Assembly: GCA_903926465.1 (NCBI GenBank)
Contig: CAIYJE010000174.1
Span: forward strand, 1-46,329
DNA length: 46,329 bases
Direction: 5' to 3'
Source of the DNA: an uncultured Planctomycetales bacterium
GTDB taxonomy: Bacteria > Planctomycetota > Planctomycetia > Isosphaerales > Isosphaeraceae
Made by a program: the position numbers and the translations under genes. Positions 10,877 through 13,130 of this stretch are shown here, piece by piece. A model generated the notes under the pieces. That model was not told the origin of the DNA, made no database searches, and was given only the letters and a program-made list of their open reading frames with translations. How positions within the stretch are numbered: position 1 is the first letter of the stretch; each line of letters starts with the position of its first letter.

Positions 10877-11386
10877 AGTTACACACCTGGATTGCGTGTT
10901 GTCGGGATCGGATATAAGCCCTCGGCTTTGTTCTGGTTACACCAGCGCAGCGGAGGCCGGTTGGCTAGACCATATCGCTACAGGCAAGTGCAGACGTGGA
11001 CTGGCTCGCGCCTCTCGTGAGTCCAGTTCCCTCGCACTCGATTCACATTATCCGGAATTGGCCGGCTGGACACGGTCTAGCAATGCCGTGGGTGCGCTAG
11101 AGGCCAGTCATTGATTTCCTGATCGACAGGTCGCCGATCCGAACGTACGCCAGACGAACTCTAGGGAGATGCTGGTTGCCATTGTCCGTCCATCTCACCA
11201 CCAGCGTTCAGGGCCGCGACAATTGTTCTGCAATCCCGGTACCCCGATCCTTGGACAGGCGGTTGTGGGGTAAATCCCTGGTGTTGGCTCAATGGCTCTG
11301 AAGGGACGTACGACAGTTTTGTGATTCAAGATTCGATCAACGCAGGCAGACCCGTTTGGATAGGAGGCCGCTGTTCGTCGTTGTTG

Positions 11387-11459
11387 GCTGCCAACCTGGG
11401 GGCTGGCAAACAGACACTGCGTAATTGCCTAATAAGGCAATGCGTACAAGGTTGGCAGC
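11387..11459. repeat. Nested inverted repeat (cruciform-like)
   Basis: Outer arms GCTGCCAACCT (11387-11397) and AGGTTGGCAGC (11449-11459) are perfect over 11 bp. Inner arms ATTGCCT (11424-11430) and AGGCAAT (11435-11441) form a 7-bp stem with an AATA loop. The folded strand would give an outer stem with a central hairpin. Confidence 0.6.
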
Positions 11460-11482
11460 AAAACTCTTGTCAATTGACCAAT

Positions 11483-11528
11483 AAAAAACCCTGCATCACC
11501 AGTCAATGAAGACCAGAGATTCAGGGTT
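11483..11528 (-). terminator. Rho-independent terminator of the small basic protein gene
   Basis: On the minus strand AACCCTG (11528-11522) pairs with CAGGGTT (11493-11487), and TTTT follows directly. Inner bases ATC/GAT and GGTC/GACT can extend the stem. It begins about 25 bases past the stop of the gene at 11553. Confidence 0.7.
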
Positions 11529-11552
11529 AATCGTATCAATCGAGCTCTAGTC

Positions 11553-11696
11553 TCAGAGTCCCTTGCCGCCAGCGTGCTTGCGCTTGCGAGGATTCCGAAC
11601 GCCGTTGAGCTTGGCCCGACGTCCCTTGGTAATCGGGGAGCTGTCGGCCTTCTTGCGCCATTTGAAGCTTTTACGATGCCGGGTCTTGGCCTTCAT
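11553..11696 (-). CDS. Very basic 47-residue protein
   Basis: ATG 11696 to TGA 11553. The protein starts MKAKTRHRKSFKWRKKAD and ends NPRKRKHAGGKGL. More than a third of its residues are Lys or Arg and it has almost no acidic residues. Size and composition suggest a nucleic-acid-binding or ribosome-associated protein. There is a faint resemblance to the start of bL35 (KTxR...FKKT), too weak for a call. No good Shine-Dalgarno sequence is visible, but a strong promoter upstream (11779-11807) and a terminator downstream frame it as a single-gene transcript of about 290 bases. It lies 165 bases downstream of the HMG-CoA reductase-like gene. The family is not recognised. Confidence 0.7.
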   Translation of the reverse strand: MKAKTRHRKSFKWRKKADSSPITKGRRAKLNGVRNPRKRKHAGGKGL

Positions 11697-11778
11697 GAGA
11701 GACGCTCGTTCGCAGGTTCAAAAATTTGGGAGCCAGCCCAGACTTGCGTAGAAGTCTCAGACTTTGGCGAAGATCGAA

Positions 11779-11807
11779 ATTATGCCTGACTGGTCCAGAG
11801 ATTTCAA
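11779..11807 (-). promoter_or_regulatory. Sigma-70-type promoter for the small basic protein gene
   Basis: On the minus strand TTGAAA (11807-11802) and CATAAT (11784-11779) are separated by exactly 17 bases. Transcription would start near 11772, leaving a leader of about 75 bases before the ATG at 11696. Confidence 0.6.
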
Positions 11808-11861: not shown

Positions 11862-13130
11862 TCAGCCTTGGGACTTGCGTCCGTATTTTTCGTGTGCGGT
11901 TGCAAACGTACCAGAAACCACGGCCGCCATCAAAGAGAGTTCCAGTGCCAGGGCTGAAGCCGCAATGATCTCGGCCAGCTTTCGAGCCGCGTGTGGCCCC
12001 TCTTGGCAGCCGAGCAGGGTCAGATTTCGCTGCTGGGCGGGTAAACGCGTGCCGCCTCCCACCGTGCCTACCGTGAGGGACGGGAGGGTCATCCGTAGGG
12101 TCAGCCCCTCCTCCTCCCACAACGTTGCCTGGGTAAAGGCCACGGCATTTTCGGCCACACAGGCGGCATCTTGTCCGGTAGCCAGATAAATGGCCGTAAG
12201 GGCGTTGGCCACATGCAGGTTATTTCCCAGGATGCCAATGGCCTGCGCGGTTGTGACCGCCAGTTGCTGGAAATCGAGCACGGACTGGGCGGTCAGGCCC
12301 AGGAATTCCAGTACATCTCGGGAAAGCTGCGCTTCCACCGAGACGGCGTGGCCGCGTCCCGCTGAAAGGGTGCGCCGGGAGGGTTTTTTGTCGCTATTGA
12401 AGCCAGATTCCAGATAGTACGGATACCCGGTCTCTTTCTGGATCACCTGGCAGGCGGCCTCGGTGGCCAGGGTGACCATGTTTTGGCCAGCCGCATTTCC
12501 CGTGTCGTAGACGAAGTCTAGCACCATCCAGTTCTGAAGGGGAACGGTGTCAATTCTGAGTAACCGTCCGTACCGGGTGGTTGATTCGGCAGCCGCCCGA
12601 AGCATACCCAGGTGGGCGTTGACCCACTCCAGAAATGGCCCCGTTTCGGAAATGCTGGGAAGCACAAATGCGGGCGACCTGGAAAGTTCCTGCTTCAGGT
12701 GAACGGTTCGACAGCCTCCGCTCATGGCCAAGGCCAGCAAGCCACGGGTCATGGAAAGCGTCAGCGTTCCTTCCAGAGTTGCCAGCGGCACGGCGAATTC
12801 ACCCTGCGCATAGGTGCCCTGAACCACCAAAGGGGACGCGATCGACATAGGTAGCGGCACAAAACCGACATGGTTTTCAATGATTCCCGGCAGTTCCGCC
12901 GTCTCGGGGAGAGGCGTTCCGGTCAGGTCAACACCGGTGTTCTTCTCAACCCAACGGATCCGTCGATCTCGGTCTTTAGCCTGGGTTCCGCCCGGTGGTT
13001 TGCCGGGAATGCTTCGCACGCTCGGTAATTCACTGTCAAGAACGGTTACCGCGGCGGGCTGCAGAGGCGATGTTACCGGCCTACCTTCATGCGATGGGTC
13101 GGCCAGGGTTTCTTGAGGTTTGAGATCCAT
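11862..13130 (-). CDS. Divergent hydroxymethylglutaryl-CoA reductase
   Basis: 422 residues. HMG-CoA reductase reduces HMG-CoA to mevalonate with NAD(P)H. Visible family motifs: IENHVGFVPLPMSIASPL (res ~85-101), the catalytic-glutamate motif FAVPLATLEG (E120), DKK (K248/K249, catalytic lysine), HVANALTAIYLATGQD (catalytic D321), the nucleotide-binding GTVGGGTRLP (~355-364) and a C-terminal histidine (H413 in TAHEKYGR). The usual GDAMGMN segment is altered to GNAAGQN (~211-217). The first ~55 residues are a Pro-rich extension. Most bacteria make isoprenoids by the MEP route, and ispF of that route lies 2.5 kb away, so this enzyme may serve another branch, for example acyl-CoA metabolism. That role is inference. 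Confidence 0.8.
   Translation of the reverse strand: MDLKPQETLADPSHEGRPVTSPLQPAAVTVLDSELPSVRSIPGKPPGGTQAKDRDRRIRWVEKNTGVDLTGTPLPETAELPGIIENHVGFVPLPMSIASPLVVQGTYAQGEFAVPLATLEGTLTLSMTRGLLALAMSGGCRTVHLKQELSRSPAFVLPSISETGPFLEWVNAHLGMLRAAAESTTRYGRLLRIDTVPLQNWMVLDFVYDTGNAAGQNMVTLATEAACQVIQKETGYPYYLESGFNSDKKPSRRTLSAGRGHAVSVEAQLSRDVLEFLGLTAQSVLDFQQLAVTTAQAIGILGNNLHVANALTAIYLATGQDAACVAENAVAFTQATLWEEEGLTLRMTLPSLTVGTVGGGTRLPAQQRNLTLLGCQEGPHAARKLAEIIAASALALELSLMAAVVSGTFATAHEKYGRKSQG

Follow-up and report, generated by a model that had tools for sequence, protein, structure and literature searches.

New bacterial ribosomal proteins have mostly been accidental finds in cryo-EM maps, and the described systems closest to the locus reported here are small proteins of the ribosome. 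bTHX (Thx, PF17070), a 30S protein of Thermus and others, is very small, Lys/Arg-rich and lineage-restricted. The 50S protein bL37 has 24 amino acids and is found in mycobacteria/actinobacteria only (PMC5876184); it is tiny, was overlooked until a map of the ribosome had been obtained, and consists of a helix and then a loop, sitting in an rRNA pocket. A third one, bS22 (mS38; COX24_C, PF08213), is small and extremely basic (61% Lys/Arg in Borrelia), and both bS22 and bL38 are missing from the annotation of the Borrelia genome though they are present in the ribosome (PMC10618245). The 47-residue protein described below is likewise small and very basic and is encoded in a single lineage, the planctomycete family Isosphaeraceae. 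As an uncatalogued, family-wide and single-copy protein with a putative housekeeping promoter it represents a concrete candidate for a ribosomal protein.

The gene is located in the window, i.e. the whole stretch of DNA that was analysed (46,329 nucleotides from an uncultured Planctomycetales bacterium of the Isosphaeraceae). The complete unit is found on the minus strand (11807-11483), the strand being absent from the original prediction. Its features and its upstream neighbour are the following:

11802..11807, minus strand: -35 element TTGAAA, read from the sequence; the TTG is conserved in relatives
11779..11784, minus strand: -10 element CATAAT, 17 nt past the -35 element; the motif recurs in relatives
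11697..11772, minus strand: 5' leader of ~76 bases, from a presumed transcription start near 11772
11553..11696, minus strand: gene of the 47-residue basic protein, ATG to TGA, 47 codons, stop codon included
11483..11526, minus strand: intrinsic terminator, hairpin 11526-11489 followed by the T-run TTTTTT 11488-11483 (fold z -5.65)
11862..13130, minus strand: HMG-CoA reductase gene (PF00368, E 3.8e-95), upstream neighbour in a separate unit

This layout agrees with the one that had been proposed before, which comprised a TTGAAA-17-CATAAT promoter (present at 11807-11779), a leader of ~75 bases (~76 bases between the presumed start and the ATG at 11696), a 47-codon Lys/Arg-rich gene (11696-11553) and a stem followed by a run of T.

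The encoded protein (MKAKTRHRKSFKWRKKADSSPITKGRRAKLNGVRNPRKRKHAGGKGL) has a mass of 5.4 kDa and a pI of 12, and contains 19 Lys + Arg against 1 Asp + Glu, giving a net charge of about +18; over 30 relatives the share of Lys + Arg is ~40%. When translated, the homologues measure 45-50 amino acids, with the ATG fixed and the stop at nearly the same place. Within the family 13-16 residues are invariant and these are spaced along the chain (K2, K4, K9, W13, S20-P21, K24, R26, K29, G32, K38, G44). The non-basic ones among them (W13, S20, P21, G32 and G44) argue for a defined binding site.

Many open frames of only 47 codons are spurious, and this one might therefore have arisen by chance over a non-coding RNA, with no gene at all. 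We consider this hardly credible: the amino acids are conserved across 20 genera in the presence of synonymous change, start and stop are fixed, and in the same stretch the +1 frame is interrupted by stops in all 30 relatives and the +2 frame in 17 of them. The median dN/dS is ~0.23, with synonymous sites near saturation, and codon position 3 is the most variable position of the gene. Judged by these substitution patterns the gene is real, conserved and under purifying selection. The usage of AAG for Lys (gene 0.88, bS21 0.84, long ORFs 0.75) and of CGC+CGT for Arg (0.60, 0.68 and 0.47, respectively) is shifted toward that of bS21, which can be taken as a weak sign of high expression.

When 59 relatives were searched with the single sequence, almost every member of the window's own family returned a homologue, with identities of 64-81%. 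The profile search then yielded exactly one copy in each of 42 of the 45 Isosphaeraceae genomes (E about 6e-19 to 4e-28), the near-universal single-copy occurrence looked for in a ribosomal protein; the three genomes without a homologue are 81%, 68% and 93% complete. A conserved frame in close relatives, which the original prediction had set as a check, is thus present, and the promoter is conserved alongside it. The carriers include Singulisphaera acidiphila, Singulisphaera sp. GP187, Paludisphaera soli, Aquisphaera insulae and Tautonia sociabilis, and many metagenome bins also carry the gene.

Outside the family, the search covered two sets from the phylum (149 and 392 genomes) and one from the class (297 genomes), which overlap and include some family members. 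No convincing homologue was found among the ~650 other Planctomycetota genomes, the matches being marginal, partial or interrupted. The weak matches L002 and L003 (E 0.001-0.003) were discounted, the match frame of L002 lacking a family-like protein with an M-start and L003 being read in the match frame like L002. Of the remaining ones, L098 offered a frame of 25 codons, L099 had a stop within the match, and G185 and others (E 0.002-0.05 per genome) showed stops or partial matches. A pattern scan over 84,980 species, of a type that misses distant relatives, returned Isosphaeraceae only, and no homologue was found in viral contigs. Among the carriers are three public metagenome bins whose records name Candidatus Kuenenia stuttgartiensis (gene at L061:402-539, L062:7965-8102 and L063:1290-1427). 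Spread to another class via these bins was rejected: they are the same genomes as G180, G170 and G449, which are placed in the family of the window, and the Candidatus Kuenenia record titles are therefore wrong. The apparent confinement to Isosphaeraceae goes beyond the original prediction, and from the distribution we infer vertical descent of the gene.

The near-universal single copy and the lack of homologues in viral contigs, together with the absence of a conserved partner gene, also speak against a toxin or peptide. That the product would be some other small basic one, such as a secreted or antimicrobial peptide, a partnerless toxin or a leader peptide, is compatible with its size and charge; the sequence has neither a signal peptide nor a hydrophobic stretch, and we regard this possibility as very improbable.

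Comparison of the protein with reference collections gave no match in Pfam (window protein, E <= 10), NCBIfam or PHROGs, and the family profile matched no chain among the PDB sequences at E <= 10. When used as a single query against the PDB sequences, the protein gave chance matches only, to eL29 and eukaryotic S9. The earlier statement that it matches no known family is correct for these four collections. The protein family has gone unnoticed, or at least without a name, in an entire family of bacteria. AlphaFold2 predicts a short helix at residues 11-19 and otherwise mostly loops, at low to moderate confidence (pLDDT 70, pTM 0.33), and a PDB fold search with this low-confidence model gave no match.

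With respect to the known small ribosomal proteins, the conservation of the 47-residue protein equals that of bTHX in the same genomes (mean pairwise identity 0.72 vs 0.71 for the bTHX core, 19 shared genomes). The two have no sequence likeness in Pfam scans, and Thx was absent among the Pfam matches of 29 family members at E <= 1. A separate bTHX is encoded in the window's own genome (G000:C21:84575-84646) and in many relatives, and the 47-residue protein is therefore neither bTHX nor its replacement. bS21 is also encoded separately in the genomes that carry the protein; replacement of either bTHX or bS21 was rejected as both are encoded in the window's own genome. bL37 differs in being half as long and in belonging to another phylum; the family profile showed no likeness to it among the PDB sequences (E <= 10), a weak test, since a search of this kind easily misses chains of such small size. 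bS22 of Borrelia is more basic than the 47-residue protein (61% vs ~40% Lys/Arg), and PF08213 had no match in 59 genomes, and none to the protein or the members of its family. uL30 was not found in 58 of the 59 relatives searched. The sole uL30 match among the 59 planctomycete genomes is located at a contig start (G151:C223:104-256), and the contig carrying it may be a contamination.

The best explanation of these data, to which we give an even chance, is that the gene encodes an Isosphaeraceae-specific small ribosomal or ribosome-associated protein. The reasons are that the protein is small, extremely basic, present in single copy and lineage-wide, that it has spaced invariant residues and that its promoter is of the housekeeping type; in addition, there is the precedent of bL37 (PMC5876184) and bS22/bL38 (PMC10618245), which were found by cryo-EM. 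The narrower proposition that it is an unrecognised ribosomal protein, exclusive to Isosphaeraceae, which fills a novel rRNA pocket or the space left by uL30, is a serious possibility that we rate somewhat short of even. The protein would be produced from a constitutive housekeeping promoter. With its charge of about +18, its spaced invariant residues and little regular structure apart from the short helix at 11-19, it would thread into an rRNA pocket and neutralise phosphates. Its mode of action would then be like that of bTHX, bL37 and bS22 in other bacteria, without sequence kinship to them. Counted against a ribosomal protein are the variable gene neighbourhood, the lack of detectable likeness to solved ribosomal proteins, an evolution that is faster than that of bS21 (identity 0.73 vs 0.96 in shared genomes), and the fact that sister families are also without uL30 and yet do not have the protein.

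A further point on that side is that the composition fits a DNA-binding protein too. A small nucleoid-associated protein, binding and compacting DNA by virtue of its charge like H1-like or small basic DNA-binding proteins, would have the observed pI and charge, and a stand-alone, constitutive, single-copy gene fits it equally; moreover, the consensus contains in its middle a stretch KGRRPK that is faintly AT-hook-like. However, the AT-hook core R-G-R-P is absent, the alignment having K-G-R-R-x-K, and the proline of this stretch is variable, being replaced by A, T, V or Q in others. Repeated Lys/Ala blocks are absent as well, and the invariant W13, SP, G32 and GG suggest a specific structured target over non-specific charge binding. 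A nucleoid protein is thus unlikely in our estimation, albeit well worth weighing. In more general terms, composition, conservation and context make binding to nucleic acid or to the ribosome plausible, as the original prediction had it.

The promoter TTGAAA-17-CATAAT fits 10 of 12 consensus positions; when the 200 upstream bases were shuffled 60 times, no shuffled version reached its score. In the relatives, the 200 bases that precede the start codon contain TTGnnn-17/18-CATAAT or near variants, 41-106 bases before the ATG. The pattern TTG-N20/21-NAYAAT occurs <=120 bases upstream in the loci of 26 of 30 relatives, as compared to ~0 in same-locus control stretches. In the window's own genome there are 9 copies of CTTGA-N18/20-CATAAT (vs 1 for the reversed control), and other copies directly precede the genes for tmRNA and tRNA-Val and a cobalamin riboswitch, which therefore makes it a housekeeping promoter. 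The loci concerned are L111 (G000:C23:69018-69046), L113 and L116; the tag peptide of this tmRNA is ANNTVGYRLAA. Both the recurrence of the pattern and its copies in the genome support a working housekeeping promoter, and TTGnnn-17/18-CATAAT would constitute a usable consensus for such promoters in Isosphaeraceae. The same pattern was not found before the bS21 or bTHX genes of Isosphaeraceae, and no Shine-Dalgarno sequence was evident in the leader of the window's gene or in the relatives. The structure of the leader in the window is no stronger than that of shuffled sequence (z 0.01), and Rfam gave no match. A structured autoregulatory leader was rejected, being unsupported in the window, and leader length and sequence differ among relatives.

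These regulatory features bear on whether the protein could be an RNA-binding accessory factor, i.e. an RNA chaperone, a ribosome assembly or hibernation factor, or a regulator, that touches rRNA or mRNA but does not count as a stoichiometric component of the ribosome. Such a factor would share all sequence features that point to a ribosomal protein, and it would sit well with the evolution faster than that of bS21 and with the lack of linkage to ribosomal operons. A plain housekeeping promoter, in common with tmRNA and a tRNA, and a leader without sign of structural control argue against it, and we deem it about as unlikely as a nucleoid protein.

The gene neighbourhood is not conserved among relatives: HMG-CoA reductase is the neighbour in the window and other contexts were found elsewhere, among them, in several relatives, what we take from translated sequences to be the SUF operon. 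A conserved operon with HMG-CoA reductase was rejected since this neighbour is not kept in relatives. No ribosomal-protein operon context was seen for the gene, nor adjacency to translation genes. HMG-CoA reductase is an enzyme of the mevalonate route. The MEP route is the one expected in most planctomycetes, and the role of the reductase in this genome therefore merits attention.

At the downstream end of the unit, the terminator stretch of 53 bases folds at -21.8 kcal/mol. Among the relatives a clear T-run terminator is limited to the window, L012 and L061-L063, with a weaker one in L019, and it is therefore not a conserved feature of the unit. Just past the terminator the window contains an imperfect inverted repeat (11384-11462; arms TTGGCTGCCAACCT / AGGTTGGCAGCAAA, inner hairpin GCCTAATAAGGC), which occurs once in the genome and therefore belongs to no repeat family; as RNA it folds at -31.6 kcal/mol (z -3.3).
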